Source: Polynucleobacter necessarius (GTDB taxonomy: Bacteria; Pseudomonadota; Gammaproteobacteria; Burkholderiales; Burkholderiaceae). From it: DNA of 64,000 nt. Made by a program: the position numbers and the translations under genes. Each line of letters starts with the position of its first letter. Within the stretch, counting starts at the first letter, position 1. Below the pieces are notes generated by a model. It was not told where the DNA came from and did not search any database. It was given only the letters and a program-made list of their open reading frames with translations. The DNA lies in the NCBI RefSeq assembly GCF_900095215.1, contig NZ_LT606949.1:711563-775562 (forward strand). Reading direction: 5' to 3'. This document shows positions 40,556-53,270 of this stretch, piece after piece.

Positions 40556-41585
40556 TTAACAGCGTTCAAAAATGCCGGCAGCACCCATACTGGTTCCAAC
40601 GCACATAGTAACCATAGCGTGCTTTAGATTGCGTCGTTGTAAGGCGTGTATAGCAGTCGCGGCACGAATGGCTCCAGTAGCACCCAATGGATGTCCAATG
40701 GCAATCGCACTGCCTAAGGGATTTACCTTGCTTTGGTCTAGGCTGAGATCGCGAGTAACCGCCAAGGACTGGGCGGCAAAAGCTGCCACTGGCTAGAATC
40801 GGTGCGCCAACACCATCAGAGGTTTGCGAGCTATTTCCAGCGGTAACGCTGCCTTTTGCTGCAAAAGGAGATTGCAGCTTTGCTGAACCTTCAAGCGAAG
40901 TGTCAATGCGCGGACTTTCATCTTTGGAAAATTCACGCCACTGAATATCTACCTGACCCCGATCCAGATTCATAGAGCGATCAGCTACTTTGACAGAAAA
41001 GATTTCAGAATTAAATTCACCAGCAGCTTGAGCAGCCATGGCCTTTTGATGTGACTGATAGGCAAAGGCATCTTGATCTTCGCGGCTAATCTTCCATTGT
41101 TGCGCTACTTTTTCAGCGGTTAAACCCATGCCACAGGCAATTCCAATATTTTCATCGCCTATAAAGATTTCGGGTGATATAGATGGGGTATTGCCACCAA
41201 TGGGAACCATGCTTATGGATTCCATGCCTCCAGCGATCATGACATCCGCCTCGCCAAACCGAATGCCATCGGCTGCCATTGCAATGGCATTCAAGCCAGA
41301 TGAGAAAAAGCGGTTGACGGTAATACCACCTACGGTATTGGGCAGGCCTCCTAAGAGAAGTCCGATGCGGGCCACATTCAAGCCTTGTTGTGCTTCTGGC
41401 ATAGCGCAACCAATAATCGCATCCTCAATCACCTTGGTGTCAAGGCTGGGAACTTGCGTCAAGATATGTGGAAGTGCATTGCCCAGCAAATCATCTGGGC
41501 GAGTATTTTGTAAGGCACCACGTCCAGCTCTGCCAACAGCACTGCGAGTGGCTGAAACAATGTATGCGTCTTGGATATGTTTCAT
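40556..41585 (-). pseudogene. fadA: acetyl-CoA acyltransferase (thiolase), deleted and mutated
   Basis: The start MKHIQDAYIVSATRSAVGR and the N-terminal half are thiolase, but the active-site cysteine position reads VNRFFSSGLNA (family: VNRFCSSG), a Cys-to-Phe change. At about 40787-40795 the frame jumps from DGVGAPILAS directly to AAFAAQSLAV in another frame. Some 80 residues normally between those motifs are missing. The end keeps AIAIGHPLGATGAIRAATAI and VGTSMGAAGIFERC. This is a clear pseudogene of the last beta-oxidation enzyme. It lies downstream of fadB on the same strand. Confidence 0.92.
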
Positions 41586-41602: not shown

Positions 41603-43946
41603 TTAGTTGCGAACCGGCTTGCCGTTTTGGAGAATGCCCATGATGCGTTCTATGGCCTTAACCAATCAGTTCAACAAAGGCTTGACGCTCTAATTTGAGT
41701 AGCCAGTCTTCGGTCACCAGGGTTCCAGCATCGACATCGCCGCCTGTAATGATGGCAATAATCTTGTTGGCGATAAACGCATCATGCTCGGAGATAAAGC
41801 CGCCATCGCGCATATCAACTACCTGACCAATGACCGTAGCCGCCACAGATCTTCCGCCAACCGGTATCAACGCCGGTATAGGTGGTCTATAGCCAGCGTA
41901 GCGCATTGCCTGCACTTGGCTTTGCGCCAGAGAAAGTAGCTCATATACGTTTGGCACAATAATGTCGCCTTTTTGTAAATAAGGCATCTTCATGGCTTCT
42001 TGAGCTGACGAAGAAACTGTAGCCATTGCCGCATTTTCAAAAGCGGCTTTTGTGAAATCCAAGTAATTGGTATTGCCAGCAAGCGCTACGCCTTGTGCGG
42101 CGCGCATAGCCGCCTCTTTAAGGCCACTACCAGCTGGGAGCAATCCAACACCCACCTCAACAAGGCCAATGTCACTTTCAATTGCAGCTACTCTGCGTGC
42201 TGATTGCATAATTAGCTCGCAACCCCCACCAAGGGCGATGCCCGATACCGCGCAAATCACAGGAACTTGTGAGTACTTCACGCGCATCATGGTGTCTTGG
42301 AAAAGTTTGACAAAAGGTTCAACGGCAGCAGGCCCACCTTGCATCACCATTGGCAAGGCGGCTGCTAAATTAGCGCTGGCGGAGAATGGGCCGCCAGGTG
42401 TACCCAGTTTTAGTGAGCTTGGTTGCCAAATCACTAGACCTGCGTAACTGGCTTCGGCACTTTCAATTGCTTTTTGAATACCATTCAGCACATCATGACT
42501 AACGGTATTCATTTTGGATTTGAATGAGGCGATTAGTACATCAGGCTAAGTTTCATCTACCCAGGCACGCAGATCGGGATTTTCATAAACGGTAGTGCCA
42601 GTGGTTTTAGGGTCAGGTGATCCATCGCCCAGTAGTGGTGCTCTAAATACTTGCTTCTGATACACCGGCAAATTAGACCGTAGTACGTATTTATTTTCAG
42701 ATGCAGACCATGAGCCTTCGGGAGTATGAAAGGCTTGCTTCTCCGCTACAGGTCCGTTCAACAGCCATGCTGGCAAAGGTTCTTTGCTAAGCGTTTTGCC
42801 CGCATCAATATCCTCTGTAATCCAATTGGCTACCTGCGTTACTCCGGCAGCTTGTCAATCTTCAAATGGGCCTTTATCCCAGCCATAACCCCAGCGCATC
42901 GCAAAATCAATTTCTCGGGCTGCTTGGGCAATATCGCCCAGGTGAATCGCGCAGTAATGGAAAATGTCGCGATAGATGGCCCATAAGAATGGTGCTTGAG
43001 GCTCATCGGTCTCTCTGAGTAGCTCAAGTCGCTCAGCAATCGGCTTTTTCAGAATGCGTTCAATCAAGGGCTCAATTGTTGCGGTAGATGGCTTGTATTC
43101 AGCGGTAGCGGCATCAAGCACGAGAACATTCTTACCCTCTTTACGATAAAAGCCTGCTTTGGTTTGCTGACCCAGCGCGCCTTTAGCGATCAGTTGTGTA
43201 ACTACATCCGGGGTCTTAAATAGCGTTGAGCATGGATCCCTCTGCAAAGAGTTCTCCATTGTCTTGATGACGTGAGCCATCGTATCTAGGCCAACCACAT
43301 CGCTTGTTCTAAAGGTGGCCGATTTAGCACATCCAAGTTTGCTGCCGGTAATCGCATCTACCTCATCAAACCAAAGGCCAAACTTTTGAGCCTCAGCAAA
43401 TACCGCTAAGATGGAGAACACGCCAACGCGATTACCAATAAAGTTAGGTGTATCCTTGGCTCGCACAACACCTTTACCCATGGTAGAGGTCATAAATGTT
43501 TCTAAGGCATCTAGAACAGCGGGATCAGTGTCTGTTGCTGGAATAAGTTCTAGCAAATGCATGTAACGCGGTGGATGAAAAAAGTCCACACGACAGAAAC
43601 GCTTCTGCAAGTCGCCCGAGAATCCTTTAGCGAGTTCACCAATTGGCAGTCCAGAAGTATTGGTGGCAAACAGCGCATGCGCCGGAATGTGGGGCGCTAC
43701 TTTTTCATATAGGGCGTGTTTCCAATCAAGACGTTCTGCAATCGCTTCGATGATGAGGTCGCAATCAGCCAGCAAGCCTAGGTCATCGTCATAGTTTGCT
43801 GCTTGAATCAAATTGGCATTACTAGCTAAGCCCAAGGGAGCTGGCTTGCGTTGTTTTGAGATTCTCGATGGCTTTGATGGCAATCGCATTTTTGGAGACT
43901 GGCTTGTCATCTTCGGCTTTCCCTGGGAGGTCAAATAGCACGACAG
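41603..43946 (-). pseudogene. fadB: 3-hydroxyacyl-CoA dehydrogenase/enoyl-CoA hydratase, 5'-truncated by inversion
   Basis: The bulk of a beta-oxidation multienzyme with dehydrogenase domain first and hydratase domain last. Its first 33 codons are missing; they lie at 49006-49104 on the other strand. Lesions seen: frameshift at the T-run 43854-43857; TGA at 42855-42857 after WGYGWDKGPFED; TAG at 42546-42548 after NPDLRAWVDET; and a shift near 41658 that hides the true tail ERIMGILQNGKPVRN. Domain signs: ECDLII-like CDLIIEAIAE, FFHPPRYMHLLELI, then the hydratase GGPFSASANLAAALP and ALGGGCELIMQSARRVAA. Not functional. Confidence 0.93.
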
Positions 43947-45371
43947 CGCACTCTAAGACACCCGGAATAAGAGATAGAACCTCCTCCACCTCATTCGGGT
44001 AGACGTTAAATCCAGAAACCAAAACCATGTCTTTTTTGCGATCAACGATTTTGGTGTAGCCATCGGCATTCATGATGCCGATATCGCCTGATTTAAAGAA
44101 GTCATCGGATGTCATGACATTCTTCGTCTCCTCTGGTTTATTCCAGTAACCAGCCATAACTTGTGGACCCCGAATACAGATCTCACCAGGAGTGCCCAAA
44201 GGCACGTCAATACCATCATCGCTCAAAATTAAAACTTCCGTACCGGAAACTGGCAAACCGATATAACCCGTAAAACTTTCAATCAAAGGAGAATTAACAC
44301 AAGCTACAGGTGAAGTTTCGGATAGGCCATAACTTTCAGAGATTGGCGCGCCAGTGGCTTTCTGCCATTGATCGGCTACCACCACCTTTTGCATTGCCAT
44401 GCGGCCACCGATAGTAGCCAAGATATTAGGAAGCTTTACTGAAGCAAATTCTGGCTTGTGGAGCAAGGCATTAAATAAAGTGTTTACTCCAGGGAAAATA
44501 TTGATATCAGGGTGTTTCTTTAATAACCTAATGAGCCCATCAAAATCGCGAGGATTGGGCACTAAGATGAGTAAGCAATCCTTGTGCATGCCCAGTACCG
44601 CACACGCTGTTAATGCGAAGCTGTGATACATAGTCAACGCGCACAAGAACACCAACTGATCTATTTTTTGCGCTTGAGGCCAGGCTCTAGCCATAACTCT
44701 GTCTGAATGACGTTAGACAGAATATTTCTGTGCAGCAAAATAGCACCTGTAGATAAGCCTGTAGTGCCACCGGTGTACTGAAGAAATGCAATGTCATTCA
44801 AAGAAGTGCTGGGCTTACTCCAACGAGAGCGACTGCCCTCACTTAATGCCTCATTAAAGGTAATATGGTCAGGCAAATCCCGGGCGGGCACTAACCTCTT
44901 CACATTGCGTACGACAAAATTCACGACCACACCCTTCATGCCAATCATCTCACCAAGCGAAGTAACCATTACTTTCCTTAGGGGAACGCTAGCGGAAATT
45001 TGCTGATCAACATGAGCAAAATTTTCTAAGATAACAATGGCTGATGCACCACTATCCTTGAGCTGGTATTCCAACTCACGCGCGATATATAAAGGATCGA
45101 CGTTGACAACTACAAAACCGGCGCGCAACACACCCAACATCGCAATCTGAAACTGCAATACATTAGGCAACATGATTGCGACTCGAGAGCCCGGCTTCAG
45201 CCCTAAACTCTGCAGGTAGGAGGCGAAGTGTTTTGAGTGCCGGTCAAGTTCCCGATAAGTCATAAACTTGTCGAGGTATTCACAAGCACGGCGATTGGGG
45301 AAACATTCAAATGATTCCTCGAACATATCCAGCAAGGATGAGTATACCGAGATATCTACCTCATGAGGCAC
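43942..45371 (-). pseudogene. fadD: long-chain acyl-CoA synthetase, 3'-truncated by inversion
   Basis: From ATG 45371 the AMP-forming ligase shows LQYTGGTTGLSTGAILLHRN (P-loop), then a frameshift at a run of six A on the coding strand (44664-44669) after GLKRK. It continues in another frame with ALTMYHSFALTACAVLG, SESYGLSETSPVACVN and DIGIMNADGYTKIVDRKKDM. The frame then runs from GVLECAV straight into fadB sequence (VLFDLPGKAEDD) at 43942-43946. The C-terminal domain lies at 49100-49308. The gene is therefore dead twice over. Confidence 0.93.
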
Positions 45372-45506
45372 ACCTTCAGGGTAGTTTGTTTATGAGGGAT
45401 TCACCATCTAGTTATTTCCAGTCTCAATCTATTTTTATTTGTATTCAGATTATTAAATCTGCAAGACCCATTCTAAACACAGCGATACATTAAGTCGAAA
45501 AGAAAA

Positions 45507-45528
45507 AGCCCTCTACATACAGAGGGCT
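45507..45528 (-). terminator. terminator of the outer-membrane protein gene
   Basis: On the minus strand AGCCCTCT-GTATGT-AGAGGGCT is followed by TTTTTCTTTT. It lies 25 nt after the stop of the outer-membrane protein gene. Confidence 0.85.
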
Positions 45529-45552
45529 GTGACTTTTGATGCAGACAAAAAA

Positions 45553-46278
45553 TTAGAAACGGTAGCCTACGCCAACCAAGAAATCGATACCAGTACCGCT
45601 AATTGGGGCGGTTAAATTTACGCCGCTGGTATTCGTAAGTACTGGATTTTTTGTGGAGTAGCTTGCGTAATTAAACTCACCCAGCAGGTAGATGGATTGG
45701 GCAACCATCTGCTTATAGCCCAAGCCGAGGGTATAACCACCTAAATTAACTGTTGAGTAGGCTAAAGTTGGCCCATTAAGCCCAATAGTTGTTCCTGTAT
45801 AGCCAACTTTTGCATATACCAGTCGGTCCTTATCTATCACATAACCAGGATTAAGTGTGACGCTGTATAAATTTTTAACGTTATATTGAACAGCTGCAAT
45901 ACTGGATGCACCGCCTCCATTGACTGGATAGGTAGTAAATGCCCCCGGCGCAGAAGAACTTGCTCCAGGGTAATAAGCCGCACTAATGCCTAAAACAAAA
46001 TCACTATTAATGCCAAAGTTATAGCCCACTCCAATATTGTCGGTTCCAGTATTAACATTATCCGCAGATGAAGAAACGCTTCCAGTAGGGCCTCCGCGCA
46101 ACAATGGGATGTTTGATGCACTTCCACCGCCGATATTAGGCGTGAATGATCCATAACCGACTGAGACTTGCCCGTAAGCACCTTCCCACGCATTTGTCTT
46201 GGCTGACTGTGCATTGGCACTCGTTGCGAATACACCAGCCATTGCTAAAACCAAGGCACTAATCTTTACTGTTTTCAT
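45553..46278 (-). CDS. outer-membrane beta-barrel protein
   Basis: A 241-residue protein with a signal peptide (MKTVKISALVLAMAGVFATS, cleaved after ANA). It has alternating Gly/aromatic strands (WEGAYGQVSVGYGSF, NIGVGYNFGINSDFVLG, YTLGLGYKQMVAQS) and ends IDFLVGVGYRF with the C-terminal phenylalanine needed for outer-membrane insertion. Strand count suggests an eight-stranded opacity/OmpA-like barrel. It is the only intact gene inside the inverted segment. A role in uptake beside the former fad genes is conceivable but unsupported. Confidence 0.8.
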   Translation of the reverse strand: MKTVKISALVLAMAGVFATSANAQSAKTNAWEGAYGQVSVGYGSFTPNIGGGSASNIPLLRGGPTGSVSSSADNVNTGTDNIGVGYNFGINSDFVLGISAAYYPGASSSAPGAFTTYPVNGGGASSIAAVQYNVKNLYSVTLNPGYVIDKDRLVYAKVGYTGTTIGLNGPTLAYSTVNLGGYTLGLGYKQMVAQSIYLLGEFNYASYSTKNPVLTNTSGVNLTAPISGTGIDFLVGVGYRF

Positions 46279-46514
46279 GTGTTTTCCTATGTTTTATTTT
46301 GTAATAAATCTGTAACAACTCGGTGCATCTTATTTAATTTCAATTCGGTTTGTATCTCGGGTTTTTCCTTTATTTGTTTTGCATCGCAATAAATTTACTG
46401 GTCCTTTTATGGACAAACACGCTTTAAGACCCATAGGATGAGAATTTAACGTTGTAGGAATTTATTGTAATGTAAAGATCGTATTATTTTTACAACAGAG
46501 AAGATAATTTCTTA

Positions 46515-47159
46515 ATGCCCATGCTTGATATAAGGCCTACCCACTCGATTGCCTCCACTGAATCCAAGAAAGGTTTGGCAACTAAGTCGACCATATTGCA
46601 AGTTGCACTTGAAATAGCCAGCAAGTCCGGCTTGGCAGGGATCACAATTGGTCACTTAGCCGACTCAGTAAGCATGAGCAAGAGCGGTGTCTTTGCCCGC
46701 TTTGGCTCACGCGAAGAACTGCAGATTGAAGTGATTCGCAAGTATTACGAATATTTTTCAGCGATCGTCTTCGCCCCTGCTCTAACTAAAGCAAAAGGAT
46801 TGTCTCGCTTGCGTCACATGATTGATGCATGGCTCAAGATTAGTGTTGGTGAAAACACTTCTAGCTGCTTCTTTATCGCAGGCGCCGCTGAATTTGATGA
46901 TCGCCCCGGGATTGTTGGCGATGAGCTCATTCGTAGCGTAGAAGACTGGCGCTCCGCCTTGTTGCGAGCCATTAAAGAGTCTATTGCTGCCGGACATCTT
47001 AAAAAAACCGTTGTTCCACAAGAAATGCTCTTCAATCTTTACAGCATTGTTTGAGGCGTGCATCACGACTCCAGATTTTTACAAAACCCCAAGAGTATTA
47101 CGTTAGCAAACAAGCTCATTAAAAATATTTGTCTGACACATCAAACTAGAAAAAAATAA
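46515..47159 (+). pseudogene. TetR-family regulator truncated by an in-frame TGA
   Basis: The N terminus has the TetR helix-turn-helix (ITIGHLADSVSMSKSGVFAR) followed by FGSREELQIEVIR. TGA at 47052-47054 ends the frame after 179 residues (LFNLYSIV). In the same frame it continues GVHHDSRFLQNPKSITLANK to TAA 47157-47159, the normal last helix of such proteins. Position beside the acyl-CoA dehydrogenase suggests it controlled the fad genes. A shortened protein could still be made, but the last dimerisation helix would be lost. Confidence 0.75.
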
Positions 47160-47218
47160 TTTTTTTATTGAATTTTTTCATTTTTTATTAATTACTCCAT
47201 ACTTCATTCGGATCTCAT

Positions 47219-48995
47219 ATGCCTCAATACAGCCCCCCTCTTCGTTATATTCACTTTGTTATTCATGAGCTGCTCGATGCTTGTAAAGCATTTTCTGCTT
47301 TGCCAGCCCATCAAGATGTCGATAAAGACACTATCAATCAGACCATTGAAGAGGCGGGTAAATTTGCGAGCGAGATTGCCTTTCCTCTGCATCAAATAGG
47401 CGATAAAGAAGGCTGCACACGTGATGATGATGGCTCAGTTACTACACCCAGTGGCTTTAAGCAGGCGTATGAACAATATGTTGCTGGTGGTTGGCCTGCT
47501 TTGTCCTGTGACCCTGAGTATGGTGGCCAAGAATTGCCACAACTCTTGAACACAGTTCTTTATGAAACCCTGAACTCCGATAATCAATCCTGGACGATGT
47601 ATCCAGGCTATCACATGGCGCTTACGAGTGCTTACATGCTCATGGTACAGATGAGCAAAAAAAGACTTATTTAGAAAAATTAGTTTCCGGCGAATGGACT
47701 GGGACTATGTGTTTAACGGAACCACATTGTGGCACTGATCTTGGCTTATTAAAGACCAAAGCGGAACCCCAATCTGATGGTACTTATGCGATCACTGGAA
47801 CTAAGATTTTTATTTCTAGCGGAGATCATGATCTCGCAGAAAATATTGTTCATCTCGTACTAGCACTCTTGCCATACTCACCGATTGGCAGCAAAGGCAT
47901 CTCCCTATTTGCGGTTTCTAAATTGAAGATTGCTGCTGATGGATCGCTTGGAGACTCTAATGCGGTTTCTTGCGGTTCGCTTGAACATAAGATGGGCATC
48001 CATGGCAATGCCACTTGCGTAATGAACTTTGATGGCGCAATTGGCACTCTGGTTGGTGAACCCCACAAGGGTTGAAACGCCATGTTTGTCATGATGAATG
48101 CAGGTGGGCATGCAAAGTCTTGGGTTGACTGACATTGCCTATCAAAACTCTGTCGCTTACGCCAAAGAACGCTTACAGATGCGCAGCTTAACCGGAACTA
48201 AAGCACCCGAAAAGGCTGCGGATCCTATTATTGCCCATTCTGATGTGCGCAGAATGCTGATCACACAAAGAGCTTATGCGGAGGCTGGTAGAGTCTTCTC
48301 CTATTGGATTGCCCTCATGATTGATACGGAACACAATCATCCAGACGAGAAGGTTCGCAAGGAAACCGGTGCAATGGTTGCCCTACTAACTCCAATTATT
48401 AAAGCCTTCCTCACTGATAATGCTTTTATTGCTACCAATGATGGTATGCAAGTATTTGGTGGTCATGGTTGCATCACCGCATGGGGTATGGAGCAATATG
48501 TTCGCGATGCCCGCATCAATATGATTTACGAAGGCACCAATACGATGCAATCACTCGATCTCCTGGGCCGCAAGGTGCTTGGGGATATGGGCAAAAAAAC
48601 TCACTAAATTCGGCAAGATCATTGAGCAATTTATTGAAGATGAAGGTGTTCGCAAAGAGATGCAGGAATTTATTGACCCTCTTGCCGATATTGCCGTGAA
48701 AGTGGAAAAGCTCACCAAAGAAATCGGCATGAAGGCGATGATGAATCATGAAGAAGTCGGCGCCGAGGTTGTTCTCTATCTACGTGTTGTTGGTCACTTG
48801 ATCTATTCATATCTTTTTGCTTGCATGGCCAAAATTGCCTTAGCCAATAAATCAAGTGATGACCCCTTCTATGAAGCGAAATTGGCGACCGCCCGCTTTT
48901 ACTTTGCCAAACTCTTACCTGAAACTGCGATGTTGATCCGCCAGGCTCGCGCTGGCTCGAAACCATTAATGGCAATGCCTGCTGATTTTTTCTGA
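47219..48995 (+). pseudogene. acyl-CoA dehydrogenase gene with at least four lesions
   Basis: A roughly 590-residue acyl-CoA dehydrogenase of the form with a C-terminal extension. It starts MPQYSPPLRYIHFVIHELLD. Breaks: a frameshift near 47655-47660 (VQMS, then [19 protein letters not shown] in another frame); TGA at 48073-48075 after GEPHKG; an indel near 48095 before MQVGMQSLGLTD; and a shift at the seven-A run 48593-48599. Retained signatures include [18 protein letters not shown] and QVFGGHGCITAWGMEQYVRD. It ends 10 nt before the fadB 5' fragment, matching an ancestral acd-fadB-fadA operon. Confidence 0.92.
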
Positions 48996-49005
48996 AAGAT
49001 GAACC

Positions 49006-49104
49006 ATGAGTGAAAACAAGATCATTAAAAAAGTAGCCATTCTCGGCGCCGGTGTCATGGGCGCGCAACTTGCCGCTCAATGCATTAATGTTGGCTTACC
49101 TGTC
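49006..49104 (+). pseudogene. fadB: fadB 5' fragment displaced by the inversion
   Basis: ATG 49006 reads [20 protein letters not shown] and [13 protein letters not shown], the NAD-binding GxGxxG start of the 3-hydroxyacyl-CoA dehydrogenase whose remainder lies at 41603-43946 on the other strand. It then runs in frame into fadD. Confidence 0.92.
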
Positions 49105-49308
49105 AGCGGCGTGCCTGATGAAGATTCTGGCGAGGCAGTCAAGGCATTCATTGTTAAATGGGATTCATCTTTAACAGAGGAGATGATATTGGCCTACTGC
49201 AAAGAAAATATCACCAATTACAAGCGCCCTAAACATATTGTGTTCCGCAACGATTTGCCTAAGACTAATGTTGGAAAAATCTTAAGACGCGAGTTAAGGG
49301 ATTTATGA
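49100..49308 (+). pseudogene. fadD: fadD 3' fragment displaced by the inversion
   Basis: [17 protein letters not shown], then [20 protein letters not shown] and [13 protein letters not shown]: the C-terminal domain of an acyl-CoA synthetase with its catalytic lysine (NVGKILRR). It is the missing end of the gene at 43942-45371. Its stop overlaps the start of the nitronate monooxygenase gene (ATGA), an ancestral operon junction. The 100-codon chimeric frame from 49006 is open but has neither function. Confidence 0.92.
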
Positions 49309-50278
49309 GTCATATTCCCAAAATACTGCAGGATCTACGTTTGCCGATAATTTCGGCGCCGATGTTTACCGTGAGTTACACGGAGTGGGTGCTTGCCGAG
49401 TGTAAGGCAGGAATTGTGGGGTTATTTCCCGCTCTGAATGCCAGACCTCAAGAAATGCTGGATGACTGGTTAAGTCAAATTCAAGTCCAGCTTGCACAGT
49501 ATCAAAAAGCAAATCCCAGCGCGAAGGTCGGTCCATTAGCTGTAAATCAAATCGTACATGTGTCTAATGCACGGTTAGAGCAGGATATGCACTCCTGCAT
49601 CAAACACCGCATTCCCATTTACATCACCAGTCTCAGGGCGCCAGTTAAAGAGATTATTGATGCCGTTCATAGTTATGGTGGCCTCGTGTTGCATGATGTC
49701 ATTAGTATTCGCCATTCTGAAAAAGCGTTAGAGGCTGGTGTAGATGGCTTGATATTAGTGGCTGCTGGAGCGGGTGGTCATGCGGGAAGTCTCTCGCCAT
49801 TTGCTTTAGTTGGCGAGGTCAGACAGATATTTAAAGGACCGCTTGTATTATCTGAAGCAATTTCTACAGGTGATGCGGTATTGGCTGCACAAGCCATGGG
49901 CGCAGATTTTGCTTATATGGGTACCCGGTTTATCGCTAGTCAAGAAACGTATGCTAGTGAGCAATATAAGCAGGCCATCGTGAACGCTCAAGCAGCCGAT
50001 ATTGTGTATACGGATCATTTCACGGGTATTCATGGAAACTATATTAAGCAAAGTATCCTGAATGCCGGCTTAGACCCAGCCAATTTGCCAGAAGGCGATC
50101 CGCAGGCTTTCGCAAAACTGTCTCAAGCAGGCAAAGATGGTGCTAGTGCAAGGCTTGGAAGGATATCTGGGGTGCTGGTCAAGGTGTTGGTCTAATCGCA
50201 GGTGTTCCTAGTGTTGCGCAAATTGTTGATCGGCTGGAGATGGGATACCTAGCAGCTAAAAAGCGCTTGCTTGGCTAA
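49305..50278 (+). pseudogene. nitronate monooxygenase family gene, frameshifted near the 3' end
   Basis: An FMN TIM barrel: LPIISAPMFTVSYTE, GLILVAAGAGGHAGSLSPFA (catalytic histidine) and GADFAYMGTRFIAS. Around 50150 one A appears lost: the present frame reads SARLGRISGVLVKVLV and stops at 50195. The other frame gives AWKDIWGAGQGVG and then IAGVPSVAQIVDRLEMGYLA, the family ending, to TAA 50276-50278. The last quarter includes FMN contacts. The gene followed fadD. Confidence 0.87.
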
Positions 50279-50360: not shown

Positions 50361-51092
50361 GTGATTCTTTGGCTACACTCACTACTGTTTTATCTATTTG
50401 GCTTTACGTCCGTCACTATTTTTGCCAGTATAATTATACTGGCACTTCCTTTTACTACCACTCGTACGAGTTACAACATCGGTGTTGTGTGTTGTCAATT
50501 AATCGAGCAGGTTTTATCTTTACTGTGTGGGATTGATTCGCAAATCAAGGGTCTAGAACATATCCCTCGAGATCCGAATAAATCCCTTATTGTTCTGGGT
50601 AAGCATCAATCTGCATGGGAGACTTTTTTTACCCGGCTACTTTTCCAAAAGAGCTTTGTTTTGTATTGAAACGAGAGCTTCTGTATGTTCCTTTTTTCGG
50701 CTGGGCGTTAGCTTCCTTGCGCATGATTCATATCAACCGCGGTGATCGCGAAAAAGCAAGAGAGGCAGTCGCTGCGCAAGGCAAGCAGGTGCTTAAAGAG
50801 GGTAGATGGATGGCTATTTTTCCAGAGGGGACTCGAACCTCGCGGCTCCTTTAAGCCTTACTGGAAAGGTGGTGTTCGTCTTGCCATCAGCACTCAGATT
50901 GATATTCTGCCAGTGGCACAAAACTCAGCTGCTATTTGGCCGAGAAATACTTTTCTCAAACGCGTTGGTTTAATTACGATGTCGATTGGACCTGTTATTT
51001 CAGTGCGGGGAAAGACGGAAGAGCAATTGCAATTAGAGGTAGAGGCGTGGATTGAGGGTGAGATGCGTCGCATTGACGCAGTCGCCTATTAG
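50361..51092 (+). pseudogene. 1-acyl-sn-glycerol-3-phosphate acyltransferase (PlsC-like), two frameshifts
   Basis: The start is GTG 50361 with an N-terminal membrane helix. The acyltransferase block has GKHQSAWETF in place of NHxxxxD, then a shift at the seven-T run 50624-50630 to another frame: PKELCFVLKRELLYVPFFGW, INRGDREKA and AIFPEGTRT. A second shift near 50838-50845 leads to SFKPYWKGGVRLAIST and IDILPVAQNSA. The family makes phosphatidic acid. This function is normally essential, so another plsC probably exists elsewhere in the genome. Confidence 0.88.
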
Positions 51093-51114: not shown

Positions 51115-51570
51115 TTAGCTTTTCTGAATCTTCTTGCGGATGTAAAGAGGCTTCGTAATACGGGCGCCCACATCTTCTTCGCGGTCTTTTACGTCGACCA
51201 CAAAGTCTTTTAAAACCTTATCGCCTGATTCTGCGGTGTTGATGATGTCATTAATTTTCTCTTGGGTGATTTCAAAAGTGGCATGAACAGCCCCTTTACC
51301 TGGTTTAAGAAATTCAATCTTAGCCGCTTGATCCCAAACGATATAGCTCTTACCGATATTTTGAGACACCATCATCATAAAGAAGGGATCAGTCATCGCA
51401 AAGAGACTGCCTCCAAAATGAACGCCAAGGATATTGCGATCTAACATGCCATGCTTCAGGCGCACCTTTGCATGACGAAAGTCCTTGGCGATTTTTTGAA
51501 CGGTAAAGCCCGCCACTACAAACGGAGGCCATAGGTTCATGCCTCTGCGTAATAGGTTGGCGTTAATCAC
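51115..51570 (-). CDS. DUF4442 hotdog-fold protein
   Basis: A 151-residue protein of the YiiD-C/DUF4442 thioesterase-like group: NLWPPFVVAGFTVQKIAKDF at the start and LGVHFGGSLFAMTDPFFMMM as the hotdog central helix. It is complete and ends in a lysine-rich tail. Likely an acyl-CoA or acyl-carrier-protein thioesterase, with the substrate unknown. It is one of few open genes in this decayed stretch and converges with the plsC remnant. Confidence 0.8.
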   Translation of the reverse strand: MINANLLRRGMNLWPPFVVAGFTVQKIAKDFRHAKVRLKHGMLDRNILGVHFGGSLFAMTDPFFMMMVSQNIGKSYIVWDQAAKIEFLKPGKGAVHATFEITQEKINDIINTAESGDKVLKDFVVDVKDREEDVGARITKPLYIRKKIQKS

Positions 51571-51582
51571 TGATTTCGATCT

Positions 51583-53270
51583 TTATTTGGGTGTCGTGGT
51601 CTTGCCCACCATCTTGGCTGCCCTCAAGAAATCAAAGTCTACGCCTTGATCAGCTTGCGTAACAGTATCTAAAAATAATTTCTTGTATCCACGCTCAGCG
51701 GTAGGTGAGGTGATGGGATTGTCTTTGATGCGCTGCGCAAGTTCTTCGTCTGAGATTAAAAGGCTAATCTCGCGATTCTTGACGCTCAAGCGAATGCGAT
51801 CACCGGTGCGCACTTGCGCCAATGGACCGCCTATCGCGGATTCGGGTGTGACATGCAGCACAATCGTGCCAAAGGCGGTGCCACTCATGCGACCATCCGA
51901 AATGCGCACAATATCTTTAACGTCAGCACGCGCTAACTTCATGGGGATGTAGCCAGCTCCTGGCATGCCAGGAGCGCCTTTAGGGCCAATATTCTTAAGC
52001 ACTCAAATATCTTCTGCTGTGACATCTAAATCAGGACTATCAATTCGGTTGGCTAAATCAGCAGCATCTTCAACAACTACGGCGCGACCTTCGTGCTCCA
52101 TTAGTTTTTCATTGGCGGCAGATTGCTTAATGATGGCGCCACCAGGCGCTAAATTGCCGTGTAGGACTGCAATACTGCCACGCGGATAAATCGGCTTATC
52201 AAATGGACGCACGACATCTTGCTTAAAGCTAGGTGGACCTGCGTCCATTTCTTCGCCTAGTGTTCTGCCGGAAACCGTCATGGCATTAAGTTTTAATAAT
52301 GGCTTGAGTTCACGCAGTAGGGTGGTCATACCCCACGCATCATGGAAGTTTTCCATGTAATGATCACCGAATGGTTTTAAATTAACCAGCACTGGAGTCT
52401 CATCACCCATCTTATCTATGGCATCTAAATCAATTTCCAACCGCATGCGACCAGCAATCGCAGCAAGGTCAACAATGCCGTTTGTACATCCACCAATCGC
52501 CAACAATACGCGCATGGCATTCTCAAAAGCGTCCGCCGTTAATACCTTATCAATAGTTAAGCCTTCTTTAGCCATCTTCACAGCGCAAGTACCGGTTTCT
52601 TCGGCGATGCGGATGCGGTCTGCGGTGACGGCTGTAGGTGTAGCGCCACCTGGAACAGTCATGCCCAGCGCTTCAGAAATGCAAGCCATGGTGCTCGCCG
52701 TTCCCATCACCGAACAAGTGCCAACGCTCGCCACTAACTGATCATTGACTTCATCCTTTTCTACCTCATCAATTTCGCCAGCGCGAAATTTACCCCAGTA
52801 GCGGCGGCAATCAGTGCATGCGCCAACCATCTCACTGCGATGTGAGCCGGTTAGCATAAACCCGGTAATCAGTTGAATTGCAGGCAATCCCTCTGAAGCG
52901 GCGCCCATCATTGGTGCTGGTATCGTTTTATCGCAGCCGCCGATCATCACAACCGCATCCATCGGTTGCGCGCGCAGCATCTCTTCCGTATTCATGGACA
53001 TCAAATTACGCAAGTACATACTCGTCGGCGCGGCAAAACTTTCATGGATGGAGATTGTCGGAAACTCCATTGGTAAACCACCAGCCAACATGACGCCGCG
53101 TTTTACTGCTTCCAGTAGTTGTGGGGCATATTGCCGTGACACGGGTTATATGCGCTGCCAGTGTTAATGATGCCAATGACGAGGCGATCTACCGCGCTAT
53201 TGGTGTAGCCGGCGCCCTTAATGAACGCTTTGCGCAAGCATCTTATTGTAGCGATGAAGTGCCCAATTTA
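51583..53270 (-). pseudogene. IlvD/Edd-family dehydratase, frameshift plus in-frame TGA
   Basis: The Fe-S dehydratase signatures are MIGGCDKTIPAPMMGA, GACTDCRRYWGKFRAGE, VGTCSVMGTASTMACI and SDGRMSGTAFGTIVLH. TGA at 52003-52005 separates TAEDI from VLKNIGPKGAPGMP in one frame. Near 53120-53126 the frame shifts; upstream the N-terminal part reads NSAVDRLVIGIINTG and SAYNPCHGNMP, without a recognisable start codon by 53270. The branch resembles sugar-acid or other dehydratases rather than housekeeping IlvD, so loss need not mean branched-chain amino-acid auxotrophy. The 5' limit is approximate. Confidence 0.85.

Follow-up and report, generated by a model that had tools for sequence, protein, structure and literature searches.

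A 5163-bp inversion with 5-bp microhomology at both junctions exchanges the ends of fadB and fadD in the genome of Polynucleobacter necessarius

Spontaneous inversions between short inverted repeats have been described in Salmonella Typhimurium LT2 (PMC3411829). In the part of that study drawn on here, five of the seven inversions tested were confirmed, with junction microhomologies of 12–18 bp, and those with 7 and 9 bp were unconfirmed. The genus Polynucleobacter is named, in the section of PMC6384880 considered here, as an example of the early stage of symbiont genome reduction, in which rearrangements occur. Short complementarity also underlies the MDA chimeras described in the relevant part of PMC1855051, which are mostly inverted joins of nearby sequences, most of them primed at 2–21 nt of complementarity. 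Two other papers (PMC9837558 and PMC4285135) provided, in the portions used, general background only, and no title on the inversion described here was found among the papers surfaced by a literature search.

The window, i.e. the whole stretch of 64,000 nucleotides of Pol. necessarius DNA that was analysed, lies in a genome assembled as a single contig of 1,703,354 bases (1.70 Mb). Its segment at 43942..49104 (5163 bp, both copies of the junction microhomology included; no strand assigned) is inverted relative to related genomes, as determined from the corresponding loci of relatives, a probe of genus genomes, an alignment with the close relative G113, and a scripted flip of the segment. Seventeen of the 53 loci found, from Polynucleobacter, two beta-proteobacterial MAG contigs, and Jezberella, were compared using matches of >80 bases, and Polynucleobacter accounts for most of the best-matching loci of the fadB part. 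In all 17 loci, the left flank (40.8–43.9 kb) is located on one strand and the region of 43.94–49.10 kb on the opposite strand, and in 16 of them the right flank returns to the strand of the left flank. In the remaining locus, that of Jezberella (L027), no match was found for the right flank, and the rest of the layout agrees. The alignments with the closest loci (again >80 bases) end at 43937/43942 on the left and at 49103/49102–49108 on the right.

A 301-base probe spanning the left junction gave matches in 122 of the 186 genus genomes probed, and the only end-to-end match was in the window's own genome. In the other genomes, matches on the fadB side stop at query position 155 or before and those on the fadD side start at position 148 or after, which corresponds to the junction. 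Both halves of the probe were found on one contig in 18 genomes, in all of which they lie on opposite strands and 5.10–5.24 kb apart, representing the ancestral state. G158 (two contigs) and G037 and G024 (pieces of 30–31 bases only) were left out of these 18, the remaining probe-matched genomes matched on the fadD side alone, and the counts of 18 genomes and 17 loci overlap, as some probe genomes are the same records as the compared loci. The same probe matched no additional copy of the left-junction region in the uninverted state in the window's genome. When aligned with 80 kb of G113, which belongs to the same genus, the rest of the window between 12 and 64 kb is collinear (matches of >100 bases). 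An earlier note on this DNA, made from the sequence alone, had placed the inversion at 43942–49104 and had proposed the ancestral order acd-fadB-fadA leftward and membrane protein-fadD-nitronate monooxygenase (NMO) rightward. Direct reading of the sequence and the alignment ends of relatives show these coordinates to be exact to the base; the proposed order is that of the relatives' loci and of G113, and the synteny comparison suggested in the note returned the ancestral orientation alone in the 17 loci and 18 genomes judged.

Reading of the sequence directly also identified an inverted 5-bp microhomology, with GACAG at 43942..43946 as the left copy and CTGTC at 49100..49104 as the right copy (both given on the plus strand). 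The inverted match is exactly 5 bp, with a mismatched flanking base at each side, and matches of at least 5 bp occur in 0.53% of random breakpoint pairs (4,217,096 pairs between the two gene stretches). The microhomology is genuine and would rarely arise at random. Once the segment is flipped back, the 5 bp fall on a Pro-Val pair in fadB and on an Ala-Val pair in fadD. The synonymous positions concerned vary among relatives; for instance, locus L009 contains CTGTC in fadD and lacks it in fadB. Among the inverted repeats of at least 12 bp in the 43–50 kb region (25 listed of 27), none has its arms at both breakpoints, and longer inverted matches, such as one of 14 bp (43043–43056 with 49713–49726), lie nearby unused. 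The microhomology claimed for both junctions, in inverted orientation, is upheld, as is, among the repeats listed, the claimed absence of a long repeat there; the continuity of coding after the flip also speaks against an IS at either site.

The two junctions generate chimeric ORFs. On the minus strand, the left chimera (43822..44694) joins the middle of fadD in frame to fadB from approximately residue 33, and the fadB frame shifts about 40 codons past the fusion point. On the plus strand, the right chimera (49006..49308; 100 aa) contains fadB residues 1–33 in frame with approximately the last 68 residues of fadD, and Pfam detected AMP-binding_C and positions 1–30 of 3HCDH_N in its product. 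These two ORFs confirm that the ends of fadD and fadB have been swapped. The breakpoints share the same codon phase, so that both fusions are in frame, for which the chance expectation is one in three. After the scripted flip of 43942–49104, fadB and fadD both read gap-free across either site: residues 1–72 of fadB match with no gap, and residues 250–558 of fadD match with one gap only, which falls at residue 346, well away from the site (near residue 490). Flipping thus repairs both genes at the junctions, as the earlier note had stated. In a protein search with the right chimera, the window's own protein alone spans both parts among the best 120 of 1609 matches, and most of the others listed cover approximately 64–68% of the query, corresponding to the fadD part. 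Seven listed matches with 78–97% coverage and 54–68% identity were considered and read as ordinary acyl-CoA synthetase C-termini. It is most improbable that the 100-aa fusion, which combines the start of the NAD-binding domain of fadB with the C-terminal domain of fadD, is expressed with the downstream NMO-family gene; if it were, it would represent a new chimeric gene born by inversion and not two dead halves.

Five genes of the cluster (fadA, fadB, acd, fadD, and tetR) carry other lesions. The rest of fadB (3-hydroxyacyl-CoA dehydrogenase/enoyl-CoA hydratase; 41661..43941, minus strand) contains a frameshift near 43.83–43.86 kb and two stops, and the rest of fadD (AMP-binding acyl-CoA synthetase; 43947..45407, minus strand) contains a frameshift near 44.67 kb and one stop. 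The fadA thiolase pseudogene (40559..41585, minus strand) consists of two pieces, with residues 267–323 unmatched. Inside the inverted segment, the gene for a TetR-family regulator (46512..47156, plus strand) has one stop, and the acyl-CoA dehydrogenase (acd) pseudogene (47219..48992, plus strand) is represented by four matching pieces with three stops. The NMO-family gene (49305..50272, plus strand) has an intact start and a frame broken near its end. An open frame in the segment (45553..46278, minus strand), for which no Pfam match was found and which is an outer-membrane protein gene only by the name given in the earlier note, shares 53% identity with its G113 counterpart and is unbroken, while fadD, tetR, and acd around it are all broken. 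Beyond the NMO gene, o41 (50361–51089) shows changes in 44 of 127 invariant residues and three stops, being far more decayed than the fad genes, which suggests that it was lost earlier than these; o41 is also divergent in one relative, L013 (31/160). The gene at 51583–53237, which we take to be ilvD, has a frameshift near its start and a stop, and 24 of its 502 invariant residues are changed, compared with 1–13 of 529–541 in relatives.

Decay extends beyond this cluster. Of the 55 frames mechanically called in G113 opposite the window, 49 match, and 23 of the 49 were found by our own reading to be broken by frameshift, stop, or truncation, which fits a genome in reduction; the organism appears to be a ciliate symbiont. 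Breakage is unevenly distributed along the window: by the same reading, the broken G113-matched frames number 4 of 24 in approximately 12.9–38.7 kb (12861–38728) versus 18 of 24 in approximately 39–64 kb (39100–63998), with one further broken frame at 12.5 kb. In the rest of the genome, further matches to these enzyme families are broken or split at 654.8 kb (3HCDH_N), 89.7 and 931.4 kb (ECH), 1193 kb (acyl-CoA dehydrogenase), and 870, 1123, and 1197 kb (AMP-binding). Open frames, identified as family matches only, were found at 1243 kb (3HCDH), 552 kb (ECH), 500 kb (acyl-CoA dehydrogenase), and 955 kb (AMP-binding). For the thiolase match at 805 kb, the open frame is 292 aa long, compared with 402–403 aa in G093, G113, and G036.

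Two ways of dating the inversion were tried and rejected. Dating by shared lesions failed with the closest of the 186 genus genomes being approximately 83% identical at ilvD (153 of the 186 matched). Dating by dN/dS failed with dS values between the window and relatives of approximately 1.35 to 2.8 or undefined; because synonymous sites are near saturation, counts of invariant residues were used alone. The cut-offs were an identity of at least 65% for relatives and at least 60% for the window, with relatives covering >80% of the gene; all 12 relatives entered the counts for fadA, fadB, acd, tetR, fadD, and o41, 11 those for o42, 10 for ilvD, and 6 for the NMO gene. Residues invariant in relatives were changed in the window at 26/310 (fadA), 37/645 (fadB), 58/529 (acd), 51/442 (fadD), and 7/116 (tetR) positions. 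The corresponding values for each relative in turn, an uneven control because near kin are included for some of the relatives but not for the window, were 0–4/363–367, 0–10/680–690, 0–5/533–538, 0–9/444–453, and 0–2/116–118, respectively. Window genes with no frameshift or stop gave 3/374 (o46), 10/405 (o23), 5/312 (o21), 18/320 (o22), 1/68 (o26), and 3/66 (o28); in this set, the more distant G058 is itself changed at many positions (fadB, 57/707), and only two relatives contributed to o21 and o22. The unbroken o42 (51115–51570) gave 10/106, versus 0–5/106–111 in relatives, which is as high as in the broken genes and speaks against a simple reading of the constraint counts. The counts do not order the events. 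They are suggestive only, in that constraint in the fad cluster has probably been relaxed and its function was probably lost recently relative to the split from free-living kin.

Another reduced genome, G033, retains remnants of the same cluster (L112, 6855–10312), comprising acd residues 272–437, fadB residues 169–651, and fadA residues 361–398, which keep the ancestral strand order and directly adjoin the NMO gene. In its 17-kb stretch, no match was found for the rest of acd, fadB, and fadA or for fadD, tetR, and the membrane protein gene; therefore, G033 shares no lesion by which the events could be ordered. This is apparently a case of parallel decay of the same cluster by another route, namely by deletion. 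In the stretches examined in G036, G093, and G020, only a fadD relative of the cluster was matched.

Host-restricted bacteria are often amplified before sequencing, and amplification can generate joins of this kind. In size and microhomology class, each single junction resembles the MDA chimeras as they are described in the part of PMC1855051 used here; however, those chimeras have one junction with an intervening deletion, whereas the present locus has two reciprocal junctions with no visible loss. Both junctions share the same 5 bp inside one 1.70-Mb contig, and the uninverted second copy of the left-junction region is unmatched in the genome. For two reciprocal amplification chimeras to form at these same 5 bp would take an extraordinary coincidence, and an artefact, whether chimera or misassembly, is thus very unlikely. 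The inversion is precise, conservative, and reciprocal, as would also be the case for a programmed or site-specific invertible switch, but its sites share 5 bp only, in place of the longer inverted recombination sites at both ends that characterize site-specific invertases, and both are located within coding genes. Moreover, none of the longer repeats listed has arms at both breakpoints, the loci and genomes that can be judged show the ancestral orientation only, and acd and tetR inside the segment are also broken, leaving such a switch with a negligible probability. IS-mediated inversions are common in early symbionts and RecA is present, which would be compatible with an inversion through homologous repeats or an IS that has since decayed. 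Once the segment is flipped, however, coding runs gap-free through both sites, where IS remnants or target duplications would have no space, and no long repeat lies at the breakpoints among the 25 of 27 repeats listed; we give this explanation hardly any credence.

A separate matter is whether the decay of the cluster began with the inversion, as its first inactivating lesion and trigger. In favour of this, the one event breaks two genes, and much of the constraint on the cluster persists, so that its loss seems recent when set against the divergence from free-living relatives (subject to the result for o42). On the other hand, the further lesions in fadA, fadB, acd, fadD, and tetR give no order relative to the inversion, other enzyme matches of the same families elsewhere in the genome are broken without this inversion, and G033 lost the cluster without it. 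A triggering role is therefore rather unlikely. The earlier note had regarded the event as a dated step in the decay of beta-oxidation, a claim that has to be withdrawn: the order of the lesions in these five genes relative to the inversion is unfixed, the genus genomes compared include no close sister strain that would bracket it, and the loss in G033 took another course.

A reciprocal microhomology-guided inversion is well supported. The locus combines an inverted segment, two identified junctions, a short identity above chance, no long repeat at both breakpoints among those listed, and coding that is continuous after the flip, with no trace of an IS. It is very probable that a lineage-specific 5163-bp inversion occurred by one reciprocal exchange at the 5-bp match through Ku-independent repair and was kept by drift. 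The segment, extending from inside fadB to inside fadD, was flipped in this single exchange at the inverted CTGTC match, which happens to coincide with a Val codon in both genes. With neither loss nor gain of a base visible, the ends of fadB and fadD were exchanged in frame, breaking both genes. Ku was not matched in any of five genomes by a search that, among 14 control genomes, detected it in Bacillus subtilis only, and RecA was present in all five; given this lack of a Ku match, end joining of the Ku-dependent type is unlikely. The exchange may have involved either template switching in replication, with annealing at the 5 bp, or an end joining that does not require Ku. Reciprocity without visible loss is atypical of resected end joining and mildly favours exchange or template switching, but one event, with a 5-bp match expected by chance in 0.5% of cases, says little about the mechanism. 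The earlier proposal of microhomology-mediated repair or template switching is plausible. The inverted arrangement probably persisted by drift, the pathway being dispensable.

The inversion adds a further case to a known and ordinary class of rearrangements. It provides a clean, base-resolved case in which one inversion breaks two genes of one pathway at once, in a genome with no detectable Ku and no repeats at the breakpoints, and in which relatives keep the unbroken ancestral arrangement. As such, it is of use in describing which mutations accompany early genome reduction, and it leaves the general picture unchanged.

Like the inversions of Salmonella Typhimurium LT2, as presented in the part of PMC3411829 considered, the inversion shows short inverted identity at its endpoints. 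It differs from the 12–18 bp cases in having 5 bp, in being observed in an assembled genome, and in lying inside two genes, and 5 bp is short for that class because the confirmed inversions had 12–18 bp and those with 7 and 9 bp were unconfirmed. The MDA chimeras treated in the portion of PMC1855051 cited above are likewise inverted, mostly <10 kb apart, and joined at short complementarity, but they arise in vitro and are non-reciprocal, with a single junction and an intervening deletion. With early-reduction symbionts, as outlined in the section of PMC6384880 used here, the genome shares a pseudogene-rich stage with frequent rearrangement; the inversions of Paulinella chromatophores mentioned there occurred partly at duplicated genes, whereas no repeat was involved in the inversion between fadB and fadD.
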